This document shows, one piece after another, positions 8,494 to 31,299 of a stretch of 32,313 nucleotides of DNA. Location: positions 1 through 32,313 of the forward strand of contig JAJZQO010000026.1 of NCBI GenBank assembly GCA_021847575.1, given 5' to 3'. The notes beneath the pieces are model-generated. The model was not told the origin of the DNA, made no database searches, and saw nothing but the letters and a program-made list of their open reading frames with translations. This DNA is from Bacillota bacterium. GTDB lineage: Bacteria > Bacillota > Sulfobacillia > JAJZYS01 > JAJYTV01. Both the position numbers and the translations under genes were made by a program. Positions within the stretch are counted from its first letter, which is position 1. Every line of letters begins with the position of its first letter.

Positions 8494-9000
8494 ATGCGCA
8501 TGACAGTTTGGACACTCGGTTTGCGCCGCGTACCCCCGGGACGCCTGCTCGGTTTCGCCGCGCTCCTCCTTCTCGCGGCCAGCATCGCCTCGTTCTTGCG
8601 GAGCCCACGGCAAGAGGCGCTCTGGCCGCTCGAGGTGCGAGCGGCCAGGCGTCACGGCCTTCCTCCTGCGCTCGTGGCGGCCGTTGTCGAGGCGGAGAGC
8701 GGCGGCAAGCGGTATGCCGTGAGTGCCCGTGGCGCCCTCGGCCTTATGCAGGCGACGCGGAACAAGTTCCAGCCCACGCAGAATCCGTTCGATGCGGAGA
8801 CCAACCTCGATGTCGGAGCGCAGTACCTGGCGGAGCAGCTCAAGGCGTTCCACGGCAATCTCACCCTGGCCCTTGCCGCATACAACGCCGGGCCGGCAGC
8901 CGTCCATCGCTACCGCGGCGTGCCGCCGTACCCTGAGACCAAGGCGTACATTCGGACCGTTTTGCGGATCTACCACCGCTGGCGGCACCGGCCGGGTTAG
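8494..9000 (+). CDS. Membrane-anchored lytic transglycosylase (SLT domain)
   Basis: 168 residues. An N-terminal transmembrane segment (about 17-35) is followed by a single SLT (goose-lysozyme-like) domain that cleaves peptidoglycan glycan strands. Catalytic Glu is E68 in VVEAESGG. GALGLMQ, NPFDAETNLDVGAQYL, LALAAYNAGP and GVPPYPETKAYIRTV are the other family motifs, all present. It should act on the outer face of the membrane. ATG 8494 is used; ATG 8500 is also possible. It converges, with a 4-base overlap, on the pilin operon. A small cell-wall hydrolase next to pilus or type IV secretion genes fits a VirB1-like role, but generic wall turnover is equally possible. Confidence 0.88.
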   Translation: MRMTVWTLGLRRVPPGRLLGFAALLLLAASIASFLRSPRQEALWPLEVRAARRHGLPPALVAAVVEAESGGKRYAVSARGALGLMQATRNKFQPTQNPFDAETNLDVGAQYLAEQLKAFHGNLTLALAAYNAGPAAVHRYRGVPPYPETKAYIRTVLRIYHRWRHRPG

Positions 9001-9644
9001 CCGCTTGTCCAGATGGCCAGTCGGTCGGTTCCGGCGACGTCGATAGAAGTGGAGAGCGTCTTTTGTTGGCCGCCTTGCGTCCAGCCGACGGAAAGGACGT
9101 ACGAGCCGTCCGCAGGGCTTCGCGCCGTCCACGGCACCCATACGGTGGTGGTGAAGCCGTCTCCTGAAGCGGTGAACTGGCCAACGTTCACCTTTGCGTA
9201 GTCGATGGCGCCGGCGGGCAGGGCCACTGTCTGGAGGAAGGCAGATGGCAGGTACAGGCGGATGTTCTCTGCCCCGGGAGCATTCGCTAGTTCGACAGTG
9301 AAGCTGTCTCCCCGGCGCACGCGCGTTTTCGACAGTTCGAGCGCTGCCGAGGGCACTGCGGGCGGTCGCGTGGTTGCCACAACCACGATCGTTCGGCTTG
9401 TGCTGGCGGTGAGTCCTCGATCGTCCTCGACGAACAGGGTGACCCGATAGCTGCCGGGTGTTGCAAAGGTCGACTGGCGACCGATCCAGATCTCGAGCGT
9501 GATGCGATGACCAGGCGCCGGATCGTAGGAATGGTCAACGTATGTGACAAGCGATCCCGTATGCACGACGGCAGGGGCGGAGAACGCAGCCACGGGGCCG
9601 GATACCGCCGCTGCAAAAAGAACCGGACTCAGTGCGGCAACCAC
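8997..9644 (-). CDS. Secreted Ig/PKD-like protein of the pilin operon
   Basis: 215 residues. The N-terminus is a hydrophobic, signal-like stretch (about 1-25) without the usual basic residues. It is followed by a beta-rich region resembling a PKD/CARDB-type domain (TFATPGSYRVTLFVEDDRGLTASTSRTIVVVA) and a second beta-rich region ending in a Thr/Ser-rich part. I recognise the fold type only, not a named family. GTG 9644 overlaps the upstream TadG-like gene by 16 bases, so it is translated as the last gene of the pilin operon. A pilus-associated or surface protein is the natural inference. Its stop overlaps the convergent transglycosylase by 4 bases. Confidence 0.75.
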   Translation of the reverse strand: MVAALSPVLFAAAVSGPVAAFSAPAVVHTGSLVTYVDHSYDPAPGHRITLEIWIGRQSTFATPGSYRVTLFVEDDRGLTASTSRTIVVVATTRPPAVPSAALELSKTRVRRGDSFTVELANAPGAENIRLYLPSAFLQTVALPAGAIDYAKVNVGQFTASGDGFTTTVWVPWTARSPADGSYVLSVGWTQGGQQKTLSTSIDVAGTDRLAIWTSG

Positions 9645-10069
9645 CCGATCGCCTCCTCGGCATGGACCGGAAACGTAACTTCGCCGATCAATGCCGGCAT
9701 GGGGGCGGTCACCAGGACGGTAGCGGCGATGGCGGCGGGAGGGCCACTTTGGACGCTGGGCGCGCCCTCCCAGGCGAAGCCGACGCCGCCCGGAAGCGAG
9801 GCGCGCAGGATTGGCGCGGCGGCCGCTTCCGCGGCCGCGGCATCGAGCAGAGGAACTCCAGACGGAATGGATGACGGGGCGACTTGGTGTGCTGCACCGC
9901 GCAAAGCGGCGTCTAGCGCGGCTTGGACATCGGAGTGGGCACTGGCGACGGCGGCGAAGTCGAGCGCGAGGGCCAGGGCGGCCAGCAGCACCGCGGCTGT
10001 GCCGGCGGCGGCGAGGATGCCCCAGACGCCGTCCTCACATGCCGTTCGGCGGACGGTCGCTGGATCCAC
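9629..10069 (-). CDS. TadG/TadE-like pseudopilin
   Basis: 146 residues with a short charged N-terminus, then one long hydrophobic helix (about 16-40, VWGILAAAGTAAVLLAALALALDFAAVASAHSD) and an outside domain. This is the layout of TadE/TadG minor pseudopilins. ALDAALRGAAHQV after the helix resembles the region in TadG-type proteins where secreted residues form an amphipathic helix. GTG 10069 has AGGAGGG (revcomp of 10077-10084) about 7 nt upstream, a very strong site. It overlaps the upstream TadE-like gene by 35 bases. The family is inferred from architecture and context. Confidence 0.7.
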   Translation of the reverse strand: MDPATVRRTACEDGVWGILAAAGTAAVLLAALALALDFAAVASAHSDVQAALDAALRGAAHQVAPSSIPSGVPLLDAAAAEAAAAPILRASLPGGVGFAWEGAPSVQSGPPAAIAATVLVTAPMPALIGEVTFPVHAEEAIGWLPH

Positions 10070-10451
10070 AGAAAGTCCCTCCTAGATTGACGACAAGTGC
10101 GGTGCCGGGCCAATTGACCGAAACCGGCGCTTCCGCGGTAAGGCAGACCTGGGCGCCCCACGGTTGGGGCGGGGGTGTACCGACTACGGTCGCGTTGCTG
10201 GTGCCCGCCCAGGCGTCGATTTCGGTCGCGAGGTCGTTGGCGATGGTGGACGTTACTCCGCCCGCCATCTCCGCGCTACGCAGGCTTGCGTAGGCTTGTC
10301 CCACCAGAAGGGAACGGAGCCCGATCAGGTGCGCTGTCTCCGCGCCGCCGAAGGCAAGCAGGAGCAGAAGCGGCATGAGCATGGCCACGGCCAGGAATGC
10401 GCTCAGATCGCCCCGTGCGTCCGTCAGCTGCTGATGGGCACGGCGAGCCAC
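10035..10451 (-). CDS. TadE-like pseudopilin
   Basis: 138 residues from GTG 10451. The processing-type sequence TDARG-DLSAFLAVAMLMP, followed by LLLLLAFGGAETAHLIGLRS, matches TadE-like minor pilins: a short leader, a cleavage Gly and a hydrophobic helix with Glu beyond it. The leader motif ARGDLSAF echoes ERGDLSTY in the upstream Flp-like pilin, suggesting the same prepilin peptidase. The C-terminal outside domain has two Cys, which could form a disulfide. The start is uncertain: no good ribosome binding site is visible before GTG 10451, and translation may be coupled to the Flp-like gene, which it overlaps by 28 bases. Confidence 0.72.
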   Translation of the reverse strand: MARRAHQQLTDARGDLSAFLAVAMLMPLLLLLAFGGAETAHLIGLRSLLVGQAYASLRSAEMAGGVTSTIANDLATEIDAWAGTSNATVVGTPPPQPWGAQVCLTAEAPVSVNWPGTALVVNLGGTFCGSSDRPPNGM

Positions 10452-10624
10452 TGGTTGACGATGTCGCTGAGCTTCGTGCCGGCACCCGTGAAGGCGACCA
10501 TCACGACACCGGTAAGGGAGAGCGCGGCCAGTGCCAGGATGCCTTGGGCGAGGTAGGTCGAGAGATCTCCGCGCTCGTCTTTGAGAATTGCAGCAAGCTT
10601 GACCCGCAGGAACGTGTACCACAT
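10424..10624 (-). CDS. flp: Flp-type major pilin candidate
   Basis: 66 residues. After a basic leader (MWYTFLRVKLAAILKDERG), a predicted prepilin cleavage after Gly gives DLSTYLAQGILALAALSLTG, a hydrophobic helix, and then a short polar tail. Flp pilins read G-xxxxEY; here the Tyr at +5 of the mature sequence is kept but the Glu is Thr. ATG 10624 has AAAGGGG (revcomp of 10633-10639) 8 nt upstream. It is the first gene of the operon and has the shared promoter motif at 10666-10704. The Tad assembly genes are encoded 12 kb away at 22486-27860. No prepilin peptidase is in the window. Confidence 0.72.
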   Translation of the reverse strand: MWYTFLRVKLAAILKDERGDLSTYLAQGILALAALSLTGVVMVAFTGAGTKLSDIVNQWLAVPISS

Positions 10625-11650: not shown

Positions 11651-12946
11651 ATGGAGGCCGGCAGAGTTCTGCTCGAAAGGGCTGCAGAAGGGGCCACGCG
11701 CGGCCGCTGGGTCTCCATGTCGCGCGCCAAGGGCCTGGCGATCACCGCGATGGGCCCGACGGTGGAGATCAGGCAGGATCCACCACGCGAGGGTACCGTA
11801 GTGCGCGAGGTGCGGGACGGCGTCCAGCGGGAATGGGCCACCCCTGGCTGGCGGCCGGATTGGGCCCAAGGCGGCGCACCCGTGGAGACGTTCGAGTGGA
11901 CCGGGCAGCGGCCAGTAGAGGATGTCACGCTGGAGGAGAAACTTCAGGCGGTCACTCGCCTGCGGGACCGCCTGCAAGGCCGCGATCCGCGCATCGTCCA
12001 GGTGATGGTGCGCTATCAGGAACTCGTCGAGGAGAATCGCGTCTCCACCGAGGCGTTCGATCGGCGCAGCCGCGTAGGACGGGTGCACTTTGTCGCGCAC
12101 CTCGTCGTTCACCAGGATGGCCACAGCGAGTATGACTACATGGGCCGTGGCGAAATAGGCGGCTTCGAACTGGCCGCCTTTGAGGACGCCCAGATCGACC
12201 GGTTGGTCGAGCAGGCTCTGCGCCTCTTGGAGGCCAAGCCGATCGAGCCCGGCACCTACAAGGTCGTGACGCACCCCGAGGTTTCCGGCGTGTTGGCGCA
12301 CGAGGCCTTCGGCCACGGCGTCGAGATGGATCTCTTTCTGTCCGATCGTGCCCGCGCGCAGCGTTACATCGACCAGCGTGTCGGCAGCGAATTCGCCACC
12401 ATCATCGACGACCCCACACTGCCGGGTGGCTTCGGCGGCTATCCGTTCGATGACGACGGCATGCTGGCCGGCCCGCATGTCATCCTCGACCACGGCATCC
12501 TCAAGGGAGGACTTGCCGACGCCGACGCGGCCATGGCCCTGCATGTCCCTTCCGGCAACGGCCGGCGTCAAGACTACAGCCGCAAGGTTTATCCCCGCAT
12601 GTCCAACACCTACTTCCAGCCGGGTACGAGCAGTCCTGAAGATTTGATCGCAGGGGTCGAGCGCGGCGTCTACCTCCAGCGCGTGGAGTCAGGCATGGAG
12701 GATCCCCGGAACTGGGGTCTGCAGGTCACCTGCCACTACGGGGAGGAGATCAGGGACGGACGTCTCACGGGCAAGCTTTACCGCACGCTCGGCATGACGG
12801 GCTACGTGCCCGAAGTGCTGCACAGCATCGACGGCGCCGCCAGCGACTTTGCGATGTGGCCGGGCCACTGCGGGAAGGGGTGGAAGGAATGGCTGACCAA
12901 CGGAACGGGCGGACCGCACCTCCGCATGACGGCGAGGCTCGGATGA
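11651..12946 (+). CDS. tldD: TldD-family metalloprotease subunit
   Basis: 431 residues of the TldD/PmbA family. The zinc-binding HEAFGHGVE motif (about 217-225) is the HExxxH site of TldD. GSEFATIIDDPTLPGGFGGYPFDDDG and the RMSNTYFQPG segment are further signatures. TldD and TldE form a heterodimeric protease that digests unfolded peptides; in several bacteria it matures peptide natural products or degrades antitoxins. ATG 11651 has GGAGGG 11634-11639 upstream at a rather long 11-nt distance. It overlaps the next gene by 4 bases (ATGA), the classic tldD-tldE pairing. Confidence 0.92.
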   Translation: MEAGRVLLERAAEGATRGRWVSMSRAKGLAITAMGPTVEIRQDPPREGTVVREVRDGVQREWATPGWRPDWAQGGAPVETFEWTGQRPVEDVTLEEKLQAVTRLRDRLQGRDPRIVQVMVRYQELVEENRVSTEAFDRRSRVGRVHFVAHLVVHQDGHSEYDYMGRGEIGGFELAAFEDAQIDRLVEQALRLLEAKPIEPGTYKVVTHPEVSGVLAHEAFGHGVEMDLFLSDRARAQRYIDQRVGSEFATIIDDPTLPGGFGGYPFDDDGMLAGPHVILDHGILKGGLADADAAMALHVPSGNGRRQDYSRKVYPRMSNTYFQPGTSSPEDLIAGVERGVYLQRVESGMEDPRNWGLQVTCHYGEEIRDGRLTGKLYRTLGMTGYVPEVLHSIDGAASDFAMWPGHCGKGWKEWLTNGTGGPHLRMTARLG

Positions 12947-22485: not shown

Positions 22486-23124
22486 TCAGAGAACGGACCG
22501 CCACAGTGACAGCAGCCAGGGAACCGCGATCAGCGCTACACCTTCCAGAAGGAGGATGCCGGCGAGCGTCGTGAAGACGTAAGGCAGGTAGGCCGCGGAA
22601 CGGCGCAACTCCTTGCGCAGGTCGCCGAGCGCGCCCCGCCGGTAGCGCGCGACGGAATCCCCGAGCGGCAAGCCGAGCTGCGCGTCACGGGACAGCAGGC
22701 CGACCAGCCGGTCCGTTTCCGGCGTCTCGAGCGCGATGCGGAGGGACTCGAGCGCAGCGGCGACGCTGGCTCCCCCACGCACCTGACTTTGGAAGGCGGC
22801 CAGGACGGGCTCGAGCGGTCCTTCCGCCCAGAGCCCCGCGTAGTGCAGGGCCGAGTGCAGCGGCTGGCCCGCCGCAGCCGCCATGGCGAGATCGGTCAGT
22901 AGGCCTGGCACCGCCTTGCGGACCTGCTCCCGGGCCGCGCTGCGCCTGAACTGCCGTGCGATGACCCCGGCGATCAGGCGGATTGGGGCGGTGAGCGACG
23001 CAAGCACCAGGCCCCATGGCCCCAAGAGCCCGGCCAGGAGCCACAAGGGGAGGGCCCGTGTGGGCCGGCGGCCGAAGTGCCACAGCGCGACGGACAGCAC
23101 AAGCCAGATGAAGCGCCCGCTCAC
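22486..23124 (-). CDS. tadC: TadC-like pilus assembly membrane protein
   Basis: 212 residues with a T2SSF (GspF-type) domain. An N-terminal hydrophobic hairpin (about 5-50) leads to a cytoplasmic helical domain with AAAAGQPLHSALHYAGLW and RGGASVAAALESLRIALETPETDRLV, and the protein ends in a hydrophobic helix. In Tad systems TadB and TadC form the inner-membrane platform that couples the TadA motor to pilin extraction. GTG 23124 overlaps the tadB stop by 4 bases (GTGA). It is the last gene of the operon; no prepilin peptidase follows. Confidence 0.82.
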   Translation of the reverse strand: MSGRFIWLVLSVALWHFGRRPTRALPLWLLAGLLGPWGLVLASLTAPIRLIAGVIARQFRRSAAREQVRKAVPGLLTDLAMAAAAGQPLHSALHYAGLWAEGPLEPVLAAFQSQVRGGASVAAALESLRIALETPETDRLVGLLSRDAQLGLPLGDSVARYRRGALGDLRKELRRSAAYLPYVFTTLAGILLLEGVALIAVPWLLSLWRSVL

Positions 23125-23828
23125 GGCAGAAGCGCCGCGGCAAGCAGCGGCACGCCACCTCCCGTCACGAGCCCTGCGCAGACGAGCCAGGGCAGGGCGG
23201 GGTCGCCACGCAAGGCCAGCCACAGCCCCAGGACGAGCAGCCCTGTCGCCATCAAGCTTGTGACGACGAAGTAGGGCAGGGTTTCACCCTCGACGGCTGC
23301 CATCTCGCGCCGATCGTCGGCGGCATCTTCGAGCAGGACCGCGAGGTGACGGTCGAGCGGGGAGCCGGTGTGGCGGCTGAGGGCAAGAGCGCGTGCGAGG
23401 CGGACGAGCAGCGGGATGGCCGACTCCCGTCCCAGCCTTGCGAATGCCGCCTCGCTCGTACCGCCGCGCAGCCAGTCGGCGAGAGCGGCCTGCCAGAGCG
23501 GGCGGAGGCCTGCGTTGCACGCAGGCAGGGCGGCCAGAGCGCACAGCTCCGCACTGCCGTAGAGCGACGCCTGCTCGAACATCGCCTGGATGGGCTCCTC
23601 TGCAGCGGCTCGCAAGGCCTGCAGGCGACGGTGGGCGAGATACCGGCCGACGCCGGACTGCCAGAGTCCGACGGCCAGGCCCGCGGCGAGCGCGACGAGG
23701 GCGCCCGACGGACGTGCCGCCACGCTCGCCGCCACAGGGGGGAGCCAGCGCAGGAGCGCCTTCGGCCCACCTGTCGCGAGGCCGCTGGCAAGAGCGGCGG
23801 TTGCGGCCACCAGCCAAAGCGCCATCAT
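23121..23828 (-). CDS. tadB: TadB-like pilus assembly membrane protein
   Basis: 235 residues. N-terminal hydrophobic segments (about 1-20 and 43-60) lead to a T2SSF-type helical domain (FEQASLYGSAELCALAAL; LARALALSRHTGSPLDRHLA) and two C-terminal membrane helices (FVVTSLMATGLLVLGLWLAL; LPWLVCAGLVTGGGVPLL). It pairs with TadC to make the platform for the pilus. ATG 23828 overlaps the tadA stop by 4 bases (ATGA). Sequence similarity to named TadB is recognised from layout and context more than from exact motifs. Confidence 0.8.
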   Translation of the reverse strand: MMALWLVAATAALASGLATGGPKALLRWLPPVAASVAARPSGALVALAAGLAVGLWQSGVGRYLAHRRLQALRAAAEEPIQAMFEQASLYGSAELCALAALPACNAGLRPLWQAALADWLRGGTSEAAFARLGRESAIPLLVRLARALALSRHTGSPLDRHLAVLLEDAADDRREMAAVEGETLPYFVVTSLMATGLLVLGLWLALRGDPALPWLVCAGLVTGGGVPLLAAALLP

Positions 23829-24760
23829 GGCCAAACCTGTTGGCCGAGGCCGTCTTCGTACTGCAGGAGAGCCGTCGGCAGCCTGGCGCCGGCCGGGTTG
23901 CGCTCGAGGTGAACGATGCCGCCGATGAGCTGGCGCAGCCGCGACCGCATGAGGCGTGGCGGCAAGCTGCGCGCGGGGGCGGCCGCGAGCAGCAGGCGCT
24001 CGGTTACGTCGCGGGCGGAGGTGGCGTGGAGGGTTGTGATGCTGCCACGGTGGCCGGTATCGAGCGCCGCGAGCCAGGCAACCGCCTCGCGGCCGCGGAT
24101 CTCGCCCACGATGATGCGGTCCGGGCGCATGTGCAGCGCGAGCCGAAGCAGGTCGTCGAGATCGATCGCGTAGAGACCGGCACGGTTCGGTGAGCGCGTC
24201 TCGAGCGCGACCACATGCGGATGAATGCGGCCGAGTTCGAGCTCTCGCGTCTCCTCAAGGGTGAGGACGCGCTCCGCCGGGTCGATCGCCTCCGCCAGCA
24301 GGCGGACGAGCGACGTCTTGCCGGTACCCGCCGCACCCGATATCACGATGTTCCGTCGGCCACGCACCCAAGAGCGCAGGATGCGCAGGGGCCGGTCGTC
24401 GCCCGCCAAAGCCTCCAGCCACTGCCTCTCGAGGTCGATCCGCGACACCTTGCGGATCGTAAGCGTGGGCGCAGGCGTGAGCGGCGGCATGGTGGCGGTG
24501 AAGCGCACACCGTCGCCCAGCCTGCCGTCGGCGTAGGGGGAGGCCTGGGTCAGCTCGCGGCCGAGCGGCAGGAGCAGCCGTTCGATCAGCTCCTGCAGAG
24601 CGCGCCGGTCGCCGAAGGAGGCCTGTTCTCTCGCGATCCGGCCCTGGCGCTCGACGAACACGCGGTCGAAGTCGAGCACCATGATCTCGCTGACCTGCTC
24701 GTCGCGGAATGCGGGCTCCAGGGGGCCGAGCCAGTAGCCAAGGTGCGTTTCAGCGGCCAT
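23825..24760 (-). CDS. tadA: TadA/CpaF secretion ATPase (VirB11-like)
   Basis: 311 residues. This hexameric secretion ATPase shows Walker A GAAGTGKTS (about 142-150), an Asp box (ERVLTLEETRELEL), Walker B MRPDRIIVGEIRG (about 211-223) and the His box TGHRGSITTLHATSARD (about 235-251), which are the TadA/CpaF/VirB11 signatures. The N-terminal domain is short compared with typical CpaF (over 400 residues), lacking most of the leading region. ATG 24760 has GAGGAGG about 8 nt upstream and lies inside the end of the TadZ-like gene. It powers pilus assembly or, as a VirB11 relative, a T4SS-type machine. Confidence 0.92.
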   Translation of the reverse strand: MAAETHLGYWLGPLEPAFRDEQVSEIMVLDFDRVFVERQGRIAREQASFGDRRALQELIERLLLPLGRELTQASPYADGRLGDGVRFTATMPPLTPAPTLTIRKVSRIDLERQWLEALAGDDRPLRILRSWVRGRRNIVISGAAGTGKTSLVRLLAEAIDPAERVLTLEETRELELGRIHPHVVALETRSPNRAGLYAIDLDDLLRLALHMRPDRIIVGEIRGREAVAWLAALDTGHRGSITTLHATSARDVTERLLLAAAPARSLPPRLMRSRLRQLIGGIVHLERNPAGARLPTALLQYEDGLGQQVWP

Positions 24761-25625
24761 CGCTCTGGGCCTCCTCGCGCCAGCGCCAGATCTGCGCTCC
24801 GTGGCGGGCCAACAGTGGCAGGCGAAGAGGCAGGCGGCCCGGCGGCACGCGAGTCACCCGGGCCCTGGGCGCAAGGCCTTGCAGCCAGCGTGTGTAGTCC
24901 GCCTCGTCCAGCGCGGCGGCCAGCACAATGTCGCTGGCCCTGGCCAGGGCGGCGATCAGGCCGCGGTCGGCAAGGTTCGCGCTGGCCCGCACGACGACGG
25001 CGGCGGAGGTCTGGGCCAGCTCGAGGCGGTCCACAAGCGGCTGCATGCCTGCCGTGAGCAGGAGTTCGGGCTGCGCCGGCGCCGGCACAATCCTCAGGCG
25101 CCTTGGCCAGTGGGGCGGCTCAAGGGAACTGCCCTCGGCCATGTACTCCGAAAGGCAGGGCACGAGGTGCAGTCGCCGCGCGTAGATCGGCTCCGTGGTG
25201 TCTGTCTCCACCAGCAGGGTCTCGCGGCCCCTGGCGAGGTGGAGGGCGACGGCCAGCGCGACAGCGGCGCCCTGGCGGGCATCGCCGGGCGCCACCACCG
25301 CCGCCAGCACTCTTTGCCCCTGACGATTCTCGCCGCGCAGTTCGGCCGCCAGATCGTCGATGGCCAGGTCCCCGCGGCTCGGAAAGCGACCACGCAGCCA
25401 GGCGATCTCCGCATCGGGGTGGATGACCTCTATCCTGCGCAGAGCCCGCTGCTCCTCGGCGGAACGGACCAGGCCAGGGTCGATCACGATGCGCGGGAAC
25501 GGCTCTTGCAGCATCCGGTCTTCCGTCTCGGCCAGCGAGAGCGTGAGGGGTTGCCCATAGACGGCCGCACCGCGCTCATGCAGTTGCAGCACCGTCTCAG
25601 GATGCAGGGCGTAGAGCGAGCGCAC
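24750..25625 (-). CDS. TadZ/CpaE-like protein with degenerate P-loop
   Basis: 291 residues. The front half is a receiver-like or uncharacterised region. The second half has the layout of a MinD/ParA-type protein: VLAAVVAPGDARQGAAVALAVALHLARGRETLLVETDT, then a set of alternating beta and alpha elements. In TadZ/CpaE this position holds a deviant Walker A (KGGxGxT/S). Here it reads APGDARQGAAV with no Lys, so ATP binding may be lost. TadZ proteins localise Tad pili to cell sites. GTG 25625 has GGAGGG (revcomp of 25631-25638) 6-7 nt upstream. It overlaps tadA by 11 bases. Family assignment rests on this layout and on gene order. Confidence 0.6.
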   Translation of the reverse strand: MRSLYALHPETVLQLHERGAAVYGQPLTLSLAETEDRMLQEPFPRIVIDPGLVRSAEEQRALRRIEVIHPDAEIAWLRGRFPSRGDLAIDDLAAELRGENRQGQRVLAAVVAPGDARQGAAVALAVALHLARGRETLLVETDTTEPIYARRLHLVPCLSEYMAEGSSLEPPHWPRRLRIVPAPAQPELLLTAGMQPLVDRLELAQTSAAVVVRASANLADRGLIAALARASDIVLAAALDEADYTRWLQGLAPRARVTRVPPGRLPLRLPLLARHGAQIWRWREEAQSDGR

Positions 25626-25636
25626 GGCGATCCCTC

Positions 25637-26209
25637 CTATTCGGCATCCGCTGGTGAGGCGGTGATGATCAGGTGCCCGGCTGCAATGCCGGTGAGAAGC
25701 GCCCGGAGTTCCTTCGAGGGTACGCTTAGGGCGATGTCGCCGGCAGTCCCCGACGCGACGCTGCCTGTGGGCACGAGGCGCTCGGGTGGCAGCCCCGTCT
25801 GTGCGATGTAAACGGAGACAATCTCCCCCACTGCAAGCGGCGGCGCACTGAGCAGGGAGGAGGCGGGCAGGCCCACCACCTCCCTGGCGGTGGCTGCCGA
25901 GGCGCCATGCGCGGAGACCGCCGAACGCAGAATGGGCATGCCAGCGGCGAGAGGCACGAGAAGACGCCCCTCTGGCCGCTTTAGGACGGGGCTGGGCAAC
26001 GGACCCGACCAGCGCACCGTGCGCACGACGGCTCCTGTGAGAGAACTGCCAGATGGCAGGTTCCGGCCCGCCACCAGCACGGCGTGGCCTGACGTCAGAC
26101 TGGCCGCCTCGAAGGCGAGCACGGCGCAGCACGCGCTCAGGAGCGGCAGCCAGAGAGGGTCGCGCAAGCGGCTAGCGATAGCGCGCAAACGAGGGACGCG
26201 TGTCAACAA
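25637..26209 (-). CDS. CpaB/RcpC-like SAF-domain protein
   Basis: 190 residues. A hydrophobic anchor (about 17-40) is followed by a SAF-type region: SGHAVLVAGRNLPSGSSLTGAVVRTVRWSG, then LVPLAAGMPILRSAV and the GEIVSVYI/GDIALSVPSKELRALLTGI segments, as in CpaB/RcpC. In Tad systems CpaB is a periplasmic or outer-face accessory protein. TTG 26209 (or 26206) has AGGAGG at 26219-26224 about 9 nt upstream and overlaps virB4 by 38 bases. The gene is short relative to CpaB of diderms, which suits a monoderm. Confidence 0.75.
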   Translation of the reverse strand: MLTRVPRLRAIASRLRDPLWLPLLSACCAVLAFEAASLTSGHAVLVAGRNLPSGSSLTGAVVRTVRWSGPLPSPVLKRPEGRLLVPLAAGMPILRSAVSAHGASAATAREVVGLPASSLLSAPPLAVGEIVSVYIAQTGLPPERLVPTGSVASGTAGDIALSVPSKELRALLTGIAAGHLIITASPADAE

Positions 26210-27860
26210 GGCGCAATTCCTCCTCGTCCAGGGTGAGACGCAGCGGTATGGTGCCGTGCTCGTCCACGAGCAGGGCCTCGCCAGGGCGGCAGCCGCGCAG
26301 GAATTCGAGAGAGCGATCCGAGAGGCCGAGCACCTCCCTGAGGCGGGGGAGGTCGGTGGCTTGCTGGTGGAAAAGCGTCAAACGGCCGGCGTTGGCGAGG
26401 ATGAGCTGCCCACCGGGGGAGCGCAGGAAGTCTCCGACGTTTTGGCTGACGATCGTGACGATCAGGCCTCGCTTGCGCGCACGCTTGGCGAGGTCAACGA
26501 GGGCATCTTCGGCACCGGCGGGCCCCAGCCAGAGATGGCCCTCGTCCAGCGTCAGCCAGTACGGCTCCTCCAGGGCGATGGCCTGCGCCGCCAGCGTTGC
26601 GTGCAGGGCGGCCTCCCTCAGCAGGGCGGGCCATTTGGTCTCGGGCACCTCGCGCAAGGAGAGATCGAGGAGTCCCGTCGCCGCGGCTGGCGGCAGGCAT
26701 GCCGCCGTGCGGCCGCCCAGGTGTCCCACGACCGGCCCGTATTCGCCCTCCGGGTCGACCACGAGCAGGTGTCGGGGCTTCTGGCGCAGGAGTTCCGCCT
26801 TGACAAAGGCGGACTTGCCATGTCCGGGGCTTCCGAGCACGACCGCCATGGGGTTCGCCGCATGCAGCCGGTCCCGCAAGACGGCGGTCCCATCCAGGAT
26901 ATGGACGCCGAGTTGGTCACCCGTCGCAATCGGCTCCGCCCCTGGGGTGAGGTCCAAGCAAGACAGGGCGGACGCCGTGAGCAGGCGCGCTGGCGCTTCG
27001 CTTTGGGCGGGCCGCGGCAGGAGCCAGTCCTGCTGCCGGTTTTGCAGGCCGAGCTGAACCTGCAGCAGCAAACCCATTTCGGCGAACGTCGTCCGGAGAA
27101 GCGACGCCTGCGACTCGCAGGCGGTCCGGTCGGGTCCTTCCCCCGAAACGAGCATTGCGGCAGCATAGAGCCGCTCGCGTCCGTCGACGATCACCTCGCG
27201 CAGCCTGAGCGCGTCGGCTTGAGCCTTCTCCGCCTCGGTGTCTGGCAGACGGTCCCGCTGCCGGCGCAGGAACGAGCTGGCGTGCAGCTGCTGCAGGCGG
27301 TGCTCCAGCCGCGACCTGGCCTGCGTGGTGGAAAGCGGAGTCATGCGCAAGGCCACGATCGCACTCTGCTGGAACGACCACAGGCGTTCGAGGCTTAGCT
27401 CGTGCAGCTCTTCCGGGTAGGCCTCGACGGCGAGAAGCTGACGGTAGCCGGTGCCCGCCTCGAGCCAGCGCACGCGAGCGCGCGGGGCGGTCCGGCCAAA
27501 GCCGGCGCGCACCGGGACCGGCCGCACGGGAATCCGGCCCGGAAGCTGCCGACGCGGCGGCAGGGCAGGATTGGCGACGGCCCACGCGAGATCCGCGGGA
27601 TTCTCCGGCCCGAGGCTCCGTGCGGGGACGCCGAGATCGCGCAGTGCCTGGAAGTTGCCGGGGTCGTCCTGCAGCCAGAGATAAAGATGCCGTTCGCCGC
27701 CCTGCAGCGACAGGGTCCAGAACAGGGGGCCTTTTGCCGCCAGAAGGAAGTCGCGCAGCGCGGCCTGGTGTGCATCGCGCTCCGGTGGAGTGAGCCACGC
27801 ATACTCCCTGCGTCCGAGTTCGTAGACGGTGCCGGCGGGCTGCCTTACGGCGCCGCTCAT
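26172..27860 (-). CDS. VirB4/TraC-type T4SS ATPase
   Basis: 562 residues from ATG 27860. The C-terminal ATPase domain has Walker A GSPGHGKSAFVK (about 341-352), VVDPEGEYGPVV and Walker B YWLTLDEGHLWLG (about 433-445), a SQNVGDFL sensor region and LRLTLDEEE at the end, matching VirB4/TraC-type AAA+ motors of type IV secretion. The N-terminal half is a VirB4-like helical region (LERLWSFQQSAIVALRMTPL). It is slightly shorter than usual (600-800). No clear ribosome binding site precedes ATG 27860. It begins a transcription unit: a terminator-like hairpin lies upstream at 28046-28082 and a promoter motif at 27944-27982. It is followed by CpaB and Tad genes, an unusual order. Confidence 0.85.
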   Translation of the reverse strand: MSGAVRQPAGTVYELGRREYAWLTPPERDAHQAALRDFLLAAKGPLFWTLSLQGGERHLYLWLQDDPGNFQALRDLGVPARSLGPENPADLAWAVANPALPPRRQLPGRIPVRPVPVRAGFGRTAPRARVRWLEAGTGYRQLLAVEAYPEELHELSLERLWSFQQSAIVALRMTPLSTTQARSRLEHRLQQLHASSFLRRQRDRLPDTEAEKAQADALRLREVIVDGRERLYAAAMLVSGEGPDRTACESQASLLRTTFAEMGLLLQVQLGLQNRQQDWLLPRPAQSEAPARLLTASALSCLDLTPGAEPIATGDQLGVHILDGTAVLRDRLHAANPMAVVLGSPGHGKSAFVKAELLRQKPRHLLVVDPEGEYGPVVGHLGGRTAACLPPAAATGLLDLSLREVPETKWPALLREAALHATLAAQAIALEEPYWLTLDEGHLWLGPAGAEDALVDLAKRARKRGLIVTIVSQNVGDFLRSPGGQLILANAGRLTLFHQQATDLPRLREVLGLSDRSLEFLRGCRPGEALLVDEHGTIPLRLTLDEEELRLVDTRPSFARYR

Positions 27861-27943
27861 GACGCGGTGCGGGAACCGTAGCCCGAATCTGGGGGGTGCA
27901 CGCTCAGAACAACCACGACCTTCCGAGAAGGAATGAAGTCGGG

Positions 27944-27982
27944 GTTCCAGGCAACCTTGGCACTTCCTGCCAAAATATGTTC
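27944..27982 (-). promoter_or_regulatory. Shared GAACA-N4-TTGG-N-AGGA promoter, virB4-tad operon
   Basis: GAACATATTTTGGCAGGA (revcomp of 27965-27982) matches the motif before flp and ssb. AGGAAGT (27962-27968) and, after an 11-nt spacer, CTGGAAC (27944-27950) form the sigma-H-like pair. The start codon of virB4 is about 83 nt downstream of the -10 element. Upstream lies a terminator-like hairpin, so the promoter is needed to start the virB4-tadC unit. Confidence 0.65.
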
Positions 27983-28045
27983 GCTTATACCAGAACATGG
28001 CGAGCACTGTCGCCGCTGACGCTGTGAGACAAGCTGCCGCGAAAA

Positions 28046-28082
28046 CGCCGGGGCGGCGCCGCCCTGCATGGCTGCGCCGCCC
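28046..28082 (-). terminator. Terminator-like hairpin after the GNAT gene
   Basis: GGGCGGCGC (28051-28059) pairs perfectly with GCGCCGCCC (28074-28082) around a 14-nt loop. On the minus strand the stem is followed by CGGCGTTTTC, a weak T-run. It lies 16 bases after the GNAT stop, and so separates the ssb-GNAT unit from the virB4-tad unit. Confidence 0.6.
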
Positions 28083-28097
28083 GAATGGCGGATTCTC

Positions 28098-28574
28098 CTA
28101 GAGGTCCAATGCCATCTCGAGTTCAGGAAGAGGGGGATCGCGGGGGACGAGCTTGTGGCGACCGGTGGGCCGGAACCCCGTTCGCGCGTACAGGCGCTGG
28201 GCTCCATCATTTTCGTCCACCACCCAGAGCAGCAGTCGCCGAGCTCCCTGCAGGCGCGCCCACCCGATGACGGCCTCGACCAGCAGGCGTGCAAGGCCCC
28301 TGCCCCTGTGGCCCGGGTCCACCCAAAGCGAGATCAGCTCCCGCTCGTCCGGCCGGTCCGCATCGCGCCCTGCGACGATCCCGCAGGGCTGCCCGCCGTC
28401 GAGAGCCATGAACCACCTGCTCGCCCCGAGCCGGGAACACCAGGTTTCCTGGTCGTAGCCCTGTTCGCGATCGAGCGTCGAACCGAAGGCCCCGGGATCA
28501 TGCTTCAAGGCGGCCAGGCGGATCTCTCTGAGAGTCGCCCAGTCCTCCTCGCGGAGCGGAATCACACGCTCCAT
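28098..28574 (-). CDS. GNAT family N-acetyltransferase
   Basis: 158 residues of the GNAT (RimI-like) acetyltransferase fold. The acetyl-CoA-binding motif A is LWVDPGHRGRGLARLLVEAV, with the RxGxG/A signature. The next strand RRLLLWVVDENDGAQRLYARTGFRPTG is typical of the family. The start ATG 28574 has AGGTG about 6 nt upstream. The substrate is unknown. It lies 103 bases downstream of dapB in the same direction, followed by a terminator-like hairpin, so it ends the ssb-led unit. Confidence 0.88.
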   Translation of the reverse strand: MERVIPLREEDWATLREIRLAALKHDPGAFGSTLDREQGYDQETWCSRLGASRWFMALDGGQPCGIVAGRDADRPDERELISLWVDPGHRGRGLARLLVEAVIGWARLQGARRLLLWVVDENDGAQRLYARTGFRPTGRHKLVPRDPPLPELEMALDL

Positions 28575-28677
28575 CGCCGCACCTGCAGGCAACATTGCCG
28601 GTTCGGCTGTACGCGCTGCAGGCGAATGGCGGCGCCACCGCCTTGGCGTGGGGCCGCCGACACTGTTCGGTTGTCGC

Positions 28678-29478
28678 TCATGCGAACAGCAGGCGGTCGA
28701 GCCCGCGTACGAGGCCCTGCACGCGCAGCACCTCTTTGGCCGCCAGCAGCGTGCCGGCGACGTATGGGTCCGCTCCCGTCCCTGCGTCATGGCGGATCGA
28801 AAGGCGCTCGTTGGGCAGTCCGAAGACGGTCTCGAACGCAATCACGTAGCTCGGCAGGCGGAGCGAGTGGACATGCGTGCCTTCGATCTCCGCGCCGCGC
28901 GCGTCGGGCCGGCCATGCACCTGGCTTGTCGGCAACTCCTCGCGGGGCCTTGCCACCTGCCCCAACTCCTCCGCGAGCTCCTGCACGGTTCCGCTTGGAG
29001 CGTCCGCCTTGCGCGCGTCCGCGTAGTCGATGATCTCCCAGGACGGCAGATACTTTGCGGCGAGCAGTGCGAAGTGCTTGGCGAGAGCCGCCGTTATGGA
29101 GAAGTTGCCCGCAGCGATCACACCGAGCCCCTTCGATGTGGCGATGGTGGCGATCTCCTCGAAGTCCATCGCCGTCAGGCCCGACGTGCCGATGACGACC
29201 CGCACGCCTCTTTCGAGGGCCGTCATGGCATGGCGCTTGACGATGGCCGGCGATGTATAGTCGATCAGCACGTCGGTCGGCTCGGCGAGGGCGGTCTCGA
29301 GATCCGGGGAGATCGTGAGACCGACCGGCGGACCGCCGAGGACGGTGCCGAGATCCTTGCCGGCCGTCTGCCGTGCCACAGCGCCAGTCAGGTGGAACCC
29401 CTCGGACGAAAGGATCTGCCGGGCCACGGCGCCTCCCGTCCAGCCGGTGGCGCCCGCGACGCACACGCGAATGGTCAT
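28678..29478 (-). CDS. DapB-like dihydrodipicolinate reductase family protein
   Basis: 266 residues, the DapB length. The N-terminal Rossmann motif is GATGWTGGAVARQ (about 9-21). FSITAALAKHFALLA, DYADARKADAPSGT (about 151-164) and the C-terminal beta segment follow as in DapB. In DapB the sequence before KxDAPSGT carries a catalytic His pair (HHxxKxDAPSGT). Here it is AD in the same place, while the Lys and DAPSGT remain. So the usual acid is missing and this may be a DapB-related dehydrogenase with another substrate. I start at ATG 29478; ATG 29493 is also possible. No other lysine-pathway gene is near. It sits inside the T4SS gene row. Confidence 0.8.
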   Translation of the reverse strand: MTIRVCVAGATGWTGGAVARQILSSEGFHLTGAVARQTAGKDLGTVLGGPPVGLTISPDLETALAEPTDVLIDYTSPAIVKRHAMTALERGVRVVIGTSGLTAMDFEEIATIATSKGLGVIAAGNFSITAALAKHFALLAAKYLPSWEIIDYADARKADAPSGTVQELAEELGQVARPREELPTSQVHGRPDARGAEIEGTHVHSLRLPSYVIAFETVFGLPNERLSIRHDAGTGADPYVAGTLLAAKEVLRVQGLVRGLDRLLFA

Positions 29479-29551
29479 TGTCACCCGCTCCATGCCGAAT
29501 TCGCCGCCGAAGTCGCGGCAGTGGCGCTACGCTTCGCCTGAGGCCGAGGCG

Positions 29552-29914
29552 TTACCTGCCGTGCCGCGCCTTATCTGCTAGACAATGCAGCGCCAGGCCC
29601 ATCCGATGCGGTATTCCGTCGTTGTCGGCCTCGAGCCAGAGCGTCGCGTCAAGATCCTCCGCAGGCTTCTGCCGGCGTATGCCGTGCATGATGCGCGGCG
29701 CCAGACGACGCACAGGTTGACCGTCCAGATCGACGAGGGCATATCCGGCCAGGGCCCCGGCCACCAGGACCGCTTCAGGGAGGGGAAGATGGCCCGCGAG
29801 GGCCGCGAGGGCCGCTACGCCCGCGCCGAACAGGCAGATGGCTTGACTTGTCTCGAGGTCACCCCAAATGCGCGGTTCGACGCGCAGGAGGTCGACAGGG
29901 ACGTGGCACTTCAA
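29552..29914 (-). CDS. PrgI family protein (VirB3-like)
   Basis: 120 residues starting at TTG 29914, which overlaps the upstream stop by 4 bases (TTGA). The N-terminus KCHVPVDLLRVEPRIWGDLETSQAICLFGAGVAALA has the PrgI pattern: a short VPVDL-type start, then a conserved turn and two closely spaced membrane helices (about 28-46 and 48-62). LVDLDGQPVRRLAPRIM follows. PrgI takes the VirB3 place in Gram-positive type IV secretion systems and usually lies directly before virB4. Here a DapB-like gene and a GNAT separate the two. A polar C-terminal extension of about 40 residues is not explained. Confidence 0.68.
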   Translation of the reverse strand: MKCHVPVDLLRVEPRIWGDLETSQAICLFGAGVAALAALAGHLPLPEAVLVAGALAGYALVDLDGQPVRRLAPRIMHGIRRQKPAEDLDATLWLEADNDGIPHRMGLALHCLADKARHGR

Positions 29915-30615
29915 GGCACGAGGCGCCGCCCGACGCCCAGAAGCGTGAACGGGAGCCGCAGCATGAAGAAGAGCAGAACAAGGCTCAGCAGCATATCGGA
30001 CGCGGGAACGGCGACCGAGAGTTCGCCTGCAAGCCCGCGCACGGCGACAAGAACAAAGGCTTCGGCCGCGGGCAGGATTGACCAGGCTACCAACTGCCAG
30101 AGCCAAAGCGCCGGCAGGCGCGCGAAGGATCGGTGGATGCCGCCGAGCACCGCGATGGGCGCGATGGCGGAGAGCAGGGCCAGAGCGGCCAGACGCGCCA
30201 GAAGCAATCCGGCCAGGAAGACCAGCATGAGGAGATACGGCAGACCGAACACGAGGAGATCGAGGAGCGACCCGCCGAAGCCGGGCGACGGTACCGGCAC
30301 GGAACCGGCCACCTGCGCGATCGTGGCCACGAGGGCACCGTTCAGCTGCCAGAGCCACGAGACGACGGTGTGGCTGACGAGGACGCCGACCACGCCCAGG
30401 AAGAGCCGCGTCAGAGCGGTCGCAGCCCGGCCTGCGGCCGCCTCGAGCATGAAGAGCGGCACCGCGAGCGCTCCCCCGGCGATCAGTGCGATGTGACCAA
30501 GCTCCGTGACGACAGGTGCGGCAGGAGGGAAGCCGTGCGCCCAGAGCAGCGTTCCCACCCATCCGTACGCCCGCTGCAGGGCCGGTGTCAGAGCGGAGCT
30601 GAAAGTCCAGCCCAT
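29911..30615 (-). CDS. VirB6/TrbL-like polytopic membrane protein
   Basis: 234 residues with about six hydrophobic segments: about 16-35, 43-60, 70-100, 120-155, 165-180 and 205-222. The core (LGHIALIAGGALAVPLFMLEAA; LLVFGLPYLLMLVFLAGLLLARLAALALLSAIAPIAVLGG) resembles VirB6/TrbL family channel proteins of type IV secretion. Family identity is inferred from topology and context because VirB6 proteins vary widely. ATG 30615 lies inside the end of the VirB2-like gene (28-base overlap). The 3' end overlaps prgI by 4 bases. Confidence 0.68.
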   Translation of the reverse strand: MGWTFSSALTPALQRAYGWVGTLLWAHGFPPAAPVVTELGHIALIAGGALAVPLFMLEAAAGRAATALTRLFLGVVGVLVSHTVVSWLWQLNGALVATIAQVAGSVPVPSPGFGGSLLDLLVFGLPYLLMLVFLAGLLLARLAALALLSAIAPIAVLGGIHRSFARLPALWLWQLVAWSILPAAEAFVLVAVRGLAGELSVAVPASDMLLSLVLLFFMLRLPFTLLGVGRRLVP

Positions 30616-30830
30616 TGGAAGATCACCCGGACGATGTCCTTGGCGAAGATGACCAAGACGAGCCCTGCAGCCACCGAGTACAGATGACTCCACGCCCGCG
30701 TGCGACCGTGTGGGTTGTCACCGCTGGTCCAGAGCAGATAGGCGCCGTAGAGCAGGGCGAGGACAGCGAAGCCTGCGAACCAGCCCTGCAACGTCGTGAT
30801 GGCGTTGAGGACGAACTGCTGAATGGGCAT
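30588..30830 (-). CDS. VirB2/TrbC-like small membrane protein (possible pilin)
   Basis: 80 residues with two membrane helices (about 15-35 and 48-68). The middle YLLWTSGDNPHGRTRAWSHLYSVAAGLVLVIFA is the pattern of TrbC/VirB2-like proteins, where a helix, a GDN-type polar loop and a second helix alternate. In type IV systems these are pilus subunits or channel proteins. There is no signal peptide with a cleavage site that I can place. ATG 30830 is 3 bases beyond the ssb stop, so translation is probably coupled to ssb. Confidence 0.65.
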   Translation of the reverse strand: MPIQQFVLNAITTLQGWFAGFAVLALLYGAYLLWTSGDNPHGRTRAWSHLYSVAAGLVLVIFAKDIVRVIFQWAGLSAPL

Positions 30831-30833
30831 CGG

Positions 30834-31193
30834 CTAGCCCTGCGAAGGCTGGGACGCGGTCTCGCGCTGCTCGATCTCCTCGCCGAGAACCAGCGGGGGG
30901 TCGAGGAAGCGCAGGCGATCCGCCACGATCTCGATCACCCGGCGAGGCTCGCCATCGTTCGTGTCGAGCGTGCGGCTGGCGAGACGGCCCTCGATGCCCA
31001 CGAGACGGCCCTTGCGCAGGTAGCGCCAGGTGGCCTCGGCAAGCCGGCGGAAGACCACCACAGGCATGAAGTCGGACCCGGTCTCGCCGCGGCCGATGGC
31101 CAGGGAGAAGGCAGATATGGCGAGCCCGTCGCGCGAGTAGCGGAATACCGAATCGGTTGCGAGCCGGCCGACCAGCACAACCCTGTTGATCAT
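30834..31193 (-). CDS. ssb: Single-stranded DNA-binding protein, short SsbB-like
   Basis: 119 residues from ATG 31193. The OB-fold is visible: MINRVVLVGRLATDSVFRYS, then AFSLAIGRG, ETGSDFMPVVVFRRLAEATW, YLRKGRLVGIEGRLASRTLD and VIEIVADRLRFLD. The protein ends soon after the OB-fold in a polar tail (GEEIEQRETASQPSQG) and has no acidic DDDxPF-like tip, the part that recruits repair proteins in housekeeping SSB. B. subtilis SsbB, induced in competence, is short in the same way. AAAGGGGAC (revcomp of 31201-31210) is 7-9 nt upstream. It opens the operon and has the shared promoter motif. It is not near rpsF/rpsR, where the housekeeping ssb usually lies. Confidence 0.9.
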   Translation of the reverse strand: MINRVVLVGRLATDSVFRYSRDGLAISAFSLAIGRGETGSDFMPVVVFRRLAEATWRYLRKGRLVGIEGRLASRTLDTNDGEPRRVIEIVADRLRFLDPPLVLGEEIEQRETASQPSQG

Positions 31194-31214: not shown

Positions 31215-31299
31215 AATAACCGCCCGATTCGCGCTGTCGAATGGAACATCCTGCCAACGGATGTTCGACAATGCCTAGCGAATAACCAGACGATTCGCG
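31215..31299. repeat. Pair of 19-bp direct repeats in the ssb intergenic region
   Basis: AATAACC-N3-CGATTCGCG occurs twice, at 31215-31233 and 31281-31299, in the same orientation and 66 bases apart; 16 of 19 positions are identical. The first copy covers the -10 element of the ssb promoter. Paired sites flanking a promoter in a divergent intergenic region suggest binding of a regulator to two operators with looping, or the footprint of an old duplication. Confidence 0.6.
31227..31266 (-). promoter_or_regulatory. Shared GAACA-N4-TTGG-N-AGGA promoter, ssb operon
   Basis: GAACATCCGTTGGCAGGA (revcomp of 31249-31266) is the third copy of the motif and extends into a perfect inverted repeat: GAACATCC (31244-31251) and GGATGTTC (31259-31266) with 7 nt between. 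AGGATGT (31246-31252) and CGCGAAT (31227-31233), 12 nt apart, give the best sigma-H-like promoter of the three. Transcription would start near 31220, about 27 nt before the gene. Confidence 0.68.

Follow-up and report, generated by a model that had tools for sequence, protein, structure and literature searches.

A relaxase-free chromosomal locus that joins VirB and Tad genes in Sulfobacillia and is associated with the absence of ComEC

In archaea, Ced and Ted are domesticated VirB2/VirB4/VirB6 systems for DNA import that work alongside Ups pili (PMC9905601, PMC11868833). In bacteria, VirB4 has been described together with Tad pilus genes on conjugative DNA. The Sulfobacillus thermotolerans plasmids pL15 and pY0017 and the Kr1 integrated plasmid carry a type IV secretion system (T4SS) with CpaF/TadA and TadB/TadC-like genes, a relaxase, and a coupling protein (PMC6803676), and linear plasmids of Cutibacterium acnes carry VirB4 and a tad locus (PMC5696575). 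Here, we describe a block of genes on the minus strand (positions 22486 to 31193) of a 32,313-nucleotide stretch of DNA from a bacterium of the class Sulfobacillia (contig JAJZQO010000026.1, assembly GCA_021847575.1; the whole stretch is referred to as the window). This block combines conjugation-type VirB genes with the motor genes of a Tad pilus. Since conjugative plasmids and integrative conjugative elements (ICEs) with VirB4 and TadABC have been published, the pairing itself is already known; the new part is the chromosomal, relaxase-free type and its link to ComEC. In the literature, we found no report of this type or of its relation to ComEC, and no paper that joins VirB4, TadA, TadB, and PrgI. 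We conclude that the locus is a real, conserved system with an unexpected link to ComEC absence.

Genes were identified by Pfam and NCBIfam profile searches and, where no profile matched, by AlphaFold modeling and Foldseek. Every gene named in a preliminary description of the window is present at the place and on the strand given for it, in the order ssb, virB2, virB6, prgI, (dapB, GNAT), virB4, cpaB/SAF, tadZ, tadA, tadB, tadC. The members of the system are as follows, with the value of each profile match in parentheses.

30834 to 31193, minus strand: ssb, 119 amino acids (aa), without an acidic tip (PF00436, 1.8e-23)
30588 to 30830, minus strand: virB2-like T4SS pilin, 80 aa (PF18895 T4SS_pilin, 1.5e-8; PF04956 TrbC, 7.6e-7; both above the curated cut-off)
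29911 to 30615, minus strand: virB6-like polytopic channel protein, 234 aa (no sequence family; fold of R388 VirB6/TrwI)
29552 to 29914, minus strand: prgI/virB3-like membrane protein (PF12666 PrgI, 0.0015, below cut-off)
26172 to 27860, minus strand: virB4-like ATPase, 562 aa, Walker A and B intact (NCBIfam CD1110 VirB4, 1.7e-36)
25637 to 26209, minus strand: cpaB/SAF-domain protein (PF08666 SAF, 4.2e-5, above cut-off; CpaB TIGR03177, 0.0031)
24750 to 25625, minus strand: tadZ-like protein, ParA/MinD fold without a canonical P-loop (no profile match)
23825 to 24760, minus strand: tadA, VirB11/GspE-type ATPase, system-specific paralogue (TIGR03819, 8.7e-66)
23121 to 23834, minus strand: tadB, GspF-like platform protein (T2SSF, 0.0063, below cut-off; placed by position and synteny)
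22486 to 23124, minus strand: tadC, GspF-like platform protein (T2SSF, 3.1e-6, above cut-off; synteny)

The T4SS-like assignments of the preliminary description fared differently from one another in the profile searches. VirB2 is placed above the cut-off, and this pilin is 77 to 94% identical within the family. The PrgI match stays below the cut-off, as does a PrgI-family match in the equivalent position of family f4 (0.0091). VirB6 matches no profile and was placed by its fold. An AlphaFold model built with 16 sequences (mean pLDDT of 72) has R388 VirB6 chains as all nine of its best Foldseek matches in the PDB, with a Z score of 10.8 over 217 of the 234 residues, compared with 7.4 for the best unrelated chain. 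Based on these nine matches and the gap in Z score, plasmid R388 VirB6 appears to be the closest match, and we count the protein as a putative VirB6-type channel. This evidence is good but not final, since the Foldseek E-values are modest (best, 0.006; none below 0.001) and the protein is helical. VirB4 matches the CD1110-family model strongly, yet below the equivalog cut-off, and in Pfam it matches DUF87 alone (0.0013). In the window's family (f1), the stretch between Walker A and Walker B of VirB4 is far shorter than in other VirB4s, as if an all-alpha domain had been lost. The TadZ model retrieves ParA, MinD, and Soj in Foldseek.

Two genes that the preliminary description had listed as block members are not part of the system. 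dapB (28678 to 29493) scores above its equivalog cut-off but lies inside the block in the window's genus only, and the GNAT gene was not seen by tblastn in the blocks of relatives from the genus or from a second genus of the family (G006 to G009). Since one is restricted to a genus and the other to the window, neither is core, and both are later insertions. The 38-base overlap of virB4 and cpaB reported previously is real and is kept in G001, G002, and G006.

By tblastn, the order of the block is the same throughout the rest of the genus and in G006 to G009, as far as the contigs reach. The block is present in every examined f1 genome, and its frames are intact except for one in-frame stop reported in G008. 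An O-methyltransferase gene lies upstream of it in both f1 genera, and within the genus it is followed by tagI, a methyltransferase gene, and then genes for a HAD phosphatase and a UbiA-type protein. A profile scan of genome contigs with a VirB4 alignment returned four metagenome-assembled genomes of f1 and two distant VirB4s.

Eleven families of the class have homologous loci, Sulfobacillus (f10) among them; Tad genes are linked to the locus in most of these families, but not in f44. Family f4 has the order virB2-virB6-prgI-virB4-SAF-tadZ-tadA-tadB-tadC, followed by Flp- and TadE-like genes. The order in f46 is of the f4 type, except that the N-terminal part of VirB4 is a separate gene, and f10 is alike. 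The position of tadABC varies within f10: it may adjoin the rest, be split off by an ABC cassette (G109), or lie at a distance of ~30 kb (G123). The f35 order is virB4-ssb-tadZ-tadA-tadB-tadC, while f43 and f44 share virB2-virB6-virB4-ssb; near virB4, f43 has just a TadZ-like gene before the contig ends. In f2 and f3, SAF and TadZ-like genes follow virB4. The ssb gene, which heads the block in both f1 genera and follows virB4 in f35, f43, and f44, is thus within the locus in four families. In this survey of gene order, the VirB and Tad sets are linked across two genera and in other families.

The flanking genes are common within f10, f46, and f47 and within f44, and they differ between these groups. 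Parts of the system adjoin the abrB-rsmI-holB region in f1, f2, f4, and f20, which suggests one old, common chromosomal location for the systems of these four families. In G104 (L062, a single contig), the cluster is present twice, at a spacing of ~13 kb; tadA and virB6 are near-identical between the copies, and virB4 of one copy is apparently in pieces. Insertions between TadZ and TadA include a reverse-transcriptase-like gene in G045 (L051) and the cassette in G109, an ABC efflux cassette (L077).

The window's genome also contains a separate, complete canonical Tad locus (L190, G000:C25) that encodes Flp, TadE, a TadG-like protein, CpaB, TadZ, TadA, TadB, and TadC. A TadA tree separates the TadAs of the hybrid loci from the canonical Tad copies that these genomes also carry; the hybrid ones form the groups f1+f2+f4 (support of 0.95) and f10+f46+f47 (0.999). 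Even TadA copies that are displaced by 24 to 30 kb or lie on another contig (G122, G123, and G020) fall inside the hybrid group. Judged from these sequences, the locus has a TadA paralogue of its own, separate from canonical Tad TadA even in genomes whose tadABC has moved away. The VirB4 tree recovers the f1+f2+f4 and f10+f46+f47 groups again, together with f20/f35/f43/f44, and places the ICE copies of the same genomes elsewhere. The proposal that the VirB and Tad genes make up one linked, relaxase-free system is supported by the synteny, by the related order in other families, and by a TadA lineage of its own.

No relaxase was found in the block or in the flanks that were read (no genome-wide relaxase search was made), and no VirD4-type coupling protein was recognized in the locus. 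The preliminary description had reported neither gene, and this holds for the locus but not for the genome, which encodes one unlinked VirD4-like protein on contig C54 (PF02534, 5.4e-6; TraG-D_C, 9.4e-5). At positions 11843 to 14009 of L189 (G000:C54), this VirD4-like gene is directly followed by a Replic_Relax gene. This pair may be what is left of a mobile element, or it may belong, at a distance, to the hybrid system. Based on the conserved flanking genes and the lack of a relaxase and a coupling protein in the locus, we agree with the earlier view that this is not an ordinary ICE. That candidate was rejected given the flanks, the presence in all family members, and the trees.

Intact conjugative relatives are found in the same class. 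An element in G141 (L079, 884000 to 903999) carries VirB2-VirB6-PrgI-VirB4, an M23 peptidase gene, TadABC, pilin-like genes, and an actin-like ParM-type gene, and has a coupling protein (PF02534, 8.5e-70) and a MobL relaxase (5.2e-7). The VirB4 locus of G053 is ICE-like, with ParA/ParB-like genes and with Replic_Relax in a pair similar to the VirD4-like/Replic_Relax pair of the window's genome. G123 has the chromosomal and conjugative types together: the VirB4 of the chromosomal type lies at 1.74 Mb, with the hybrid tadA at 1.77 Mb, and the other VirB4 lies at 0.11 Mb. Among plasmids, a close relative was sought and rejected: the coverage of the query by plasmid VirB4s always stays short of 80%, and all identities are below 60%. 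The megaplasmid regions of Pontibacillus and Miltoncostaea have no annotated Tad genes near VirB4.

ComEC (PF03772) was not found in the window's genome, which is 99.4% complete, or in the examined genomes of its order, and DprA (PF02481) was likewise not found in this genome or its order. Across the class, PF03772 detects ComEC in 80 of 154 genomes, and it also does so in 10 of 14 control genomes. None of the 62 genomes with the chromosomal VirB4 type has ComEC, compared with 80 of the 92 others; the 62 were defined by family plus a strong VirB4 match, by a rule set after both result lists had been seen, and five genomes of VirB4-bearing families without a clear match were counted as lacking the VirB4 type. 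Two ComEC-positive genomes with VirB4 were checked (G141 and G053), and both loci look mobile. DprA is present in 8 of the 62 genomes with the locus versus 77 of the 92 without it, so any imported DNA must reach RecA by another route. The preliminary description had noted that the SSB lacks an acidic tip, as competence SsbB does. The tip is indeed missing in the window protein and its relatives; since the genome has neither ComEC nor DprA, the comparison with SsbB is doubtful.

The lineages that lack ComEC do not form one clade on a single-gene rpoB tree of 80 genomes (f35 not included). The group f1+f4+f10+f46+f47 (0.97) is separate from f43+f44 (0.99), and f20 and f2+f3 have weakly supported places. 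At least two or three separate lineages combine the VirB4 type with an absence of ComEC. On this tree, a model of correlated evolution beats independence (likelihood ratio, 33.7; 4 degrees of freedom; p of ~8e-7) in a test that is known to be overconfident with few events.

The preliminary description named the genes of the block but overlooked a second set of candidate components in the window, at 8494 to 10624.

10424 to 10624, minus strand: Flp-like pilin, 66 aa, ~12 kb away from tadC (no Pfam match)
10035 to 10451, minus strand: TadE-like pseudopilin (TadE, 0.028, below cut-off)
9629 to 10069, minus strand: third pilin-like membrane protein, adjoining tadE (no Pfam match)
8494 to 9000, plus strand: SLT lytic transglycosylase, VirB1-like, predicted accessory part (PF01464, 2.9e-22)

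The Flp-like protein is 56 to 63% identical to the product of the gene that lies directly after tadC in f4 and 89% identical to its counterpart in G006, where, as in the window, the gene is 12 kb off. The TadE-like protein has counterparts after flp in f4 (33%) and in G006 (50%). The third protein is 46% identical in G006, and the transglycosylase gene, which adjoins the pilin genes there too, encodes a protein with 64% identity; the order of all four genes is kept. As read from the sequence, the pilin-like proteins lack the usual Flp glutamate after the cleavage site. The small membrane proteins at 9629 to 10624 look like pilins of the hybrid system, displaced by ~12 kb in f1, and these three proteins and the transglycosylase probably belong to it.

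A further candidate element precedes the block.

31248 to 31267, minus strand: conserved upstream element CGAACATCCGTTGGCAGGAT, candidate operator or promoter, in which CGAACATnnGTTGG is invariant in seven genomes

In the window and six relatives, CGAACATnnGTTGG stands ~60 bases ahead of ssb and resembles a LexA half-site. The element resembles a LexA-type palindrome without matching it and is not enriched genome-wide. Sequences similar to CGAACATnnGTTGG occur elsewhere in G006 and G007 (L166 and L171). LexA/SOS control, and with it induction by DNA damage, was looked for through GAACATnnGTT: four genomes have 4 to 11 copies versus 3 to 9 in the reversed control, and with counts so near the control, no regulon is shown. 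In three genomes (L177, L182, and L167), what looks like a true palindrome, GAACAAATGTTC, from which the ssb upstream site differs, lies 30 bases before a conserved gene, whose product of ~377 aa matches IMS (Y-family polymerase) weakly (0.034).

The interpretation that we favor, and to which we give close to an even chance, is that the locus encodes a domesticated chromosomal VirB-Tad machine that serves the exchange of chromosomal DNA, with import as the likeliest direction. Archaeal Ced/Ted with Ups pili would be its nearest functional parallel. Such a machine would be vertically inherited and would combine a monoderm T4SS core with a Tad-type motor of its own. The membrane pore would consist of VirB6, PrgI/VirB3, and the VirB4 ATPase, with VirB2 as a conjugation-type pilin. 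TadZ-TadA-TadB-TadC-CpaB and the Flp/TadE-like pilins would form a retractable type IV filament, bringing DNA or a partner cell up to the cell surface. VirB4 would then drive single-stranded DNA through the VirB6 pore, the locus SSB would coat the incoming strand for recombination, and the machine would stand in for ComEC. Since the relatives with a VirB core lack ComEC, it may be these bacteria's own way to move DNA between cells. Gene content, the VirB6 and TadZ folds, synteny, chromosomal anchoring, the separate TadA lineage, and the absence of ComEC with the VirB core all support this interpretation, and the SSB, which is in the locus in only four families, is a suggestive hint of a DNA role. 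The DNA-uptake or DNA-release machine proposed in the preliminary description is plausible, with added support from the ComEC anti-correlation; we infer the direction (inward), as we do the assembly of the parts together, DNA as the substrate, and its single-strandedness. A broader idea, that several lineages independently swapped ComEC for a domesticated conjugation machine with a Tad filament motor, and so gained a second, non-ComEC route for importing chromosomal DNA, convergent with archaeal Ced/Ted and Ups, is possible, and we put it forward only tentatively.

Several observations weigh against an import machine. No Tad genes were found beside virB4 in f44, and the loci of f2, f4, f10, f46, and f47 lack ssb. 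DprA is missing from most of the genomes that carry the locus. The independent losses of ComEC are few and were counted on a single-gene tree, and loss of competence for unrelated reasons would yield the same ComEC pattern. The VirD4-like/Replic_Relax pair elsewhere in the genome would fit export.

Adhesion is the canonical role of Tad pili, and the locus might instead encode a device for adhesion or cell contact, or a machine that secretes proteins. Its VirB core and Tad motor would then extend and retract pili or deliver proteins without any DNA transport, and the loss of ComEC would be coincidental. The two kinds of pilin encoded (VirB2-like and Flp-like) and the scarcity of DprA are consistent with such a device, and the relaxase-free chromosomal T4SSs of Patescibacteria are needed for epibiotic growth rather than competence (PMC12102498, PMC12857230). 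We nevertheless consider it unlikely, since the genome has its canonical Tad locus for adhesion, the block has no conserved effector candidates, ssb lies within the locus in four families, and the ComEC anti-correlation would be left unexplained.

Bacterial VirB4/VirB6 systems normally export, and the gonococcal GGI system exports chromosomal DNA. A donor machine of this kind, which would send chromosomal DNA to partner cells or the medium after the unlinked VirD4-like and Replic_Relax proteins had prepared the substrate, would agree with the presence of that pair, with the similar pair in the ICE-like G053 locus, and with the conjugative nature of the nearest mobile relatives. The pair is, however, unlinked to the locus, the block has no recognized relaxase, and export alone gives no reason for ComEC to be absent, which makes this explanation improbable. 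A decayed or resident ICE, for which the intact VirB4 and Tad conjugative elements with relaxase and coupling protein in the class (G141) offer a precedent, is very improbable given the presence of the block in every examined f1 genome with frames intact apart from the G008 stop, its conserved chromosomal flanks, and VirB4 and TadA lineages to which the ICE copies of G001, G002, and G141 do not belong.

An acid-loving bacterial group carries a hybrid of conjugation channel and pilus motor at fixed chromosomal sites. If the VirB-Tad machine does move DNA, it would be a bacterial case of such transport, it could explain recombination in lineages without ComEC and mostly without DprA, and the cultured genus Sulfobacillus would be the place to study it. 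The locus is also relevant to the question, posed for PAPI-1 and other chimeric systems of that kind (PMC12857230), of how conjugation machines come together with type IV filaments.

Comparison with known systems places the locus among several partial likenesses. It shares VirB4, TadA, TadB/TadC, and MinD-like genes with the conjugative plasmids and ICEs (pL15, pY0017, Kr1, C. acnes, and G141), but those are mobile and have a relaxase and a coupling protein, while the chromosomal locus has neither. The same difference separates it from monoderm conjugative T4SSs (like the mating-pair-formation type FATA), with which it has in common a VirB4 with Walker A and B and a VirB6-type fold. Like the canonical Tad pilus (G000:C25), it has TadZ, TadA, TadB, TadC, CpaB, and probable Flp/TadE-type proteins, but its TadA is of a separate lineage, it is linked to VirB genes, and its pilin-like proteins lack the usual glutamate. 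Helicobacter pylori ComB is, as proposed here for the locus, a T4SS for DNA uptake without VirD4, but it passes DNA to ComEC at the inner membrane (PMC12857230), and ComEC is absent from the window's genome. The Patescibacteria T4SSs are chromosomal, widespread in their group, and mostly without a relaxase, and have a monoderm VirB set and VirB2-like pilins (PMC12102498). That paper, however, does not mention a Tad module ("tad" has 0 occurrences), and the cultured Patescibacterium, in which the function is epibiotic growth, keeps ComEC. The Ced and Ted systems share with the locus a chromosomal, relaxase-free VirB2/VirB4/VirB6 core and a predicted type IV filament alongside (Ups, with the ATPase UpsE and the platform protein UpsF). 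Ted also has a ParA/MinD-like protein, which compares with the ParA/MinD fold of the TadZ-like protein. In contrast to both, the window's system is bacterial and has a PrgI/VirB3-like protein, a kind reported to be absent in archaea; its VirB4 matches CD1110 (1.7e-36) rather than CedB (0.051); and its filament motor is of the Tad type and lies in the same gene block, with ssb in the locus.

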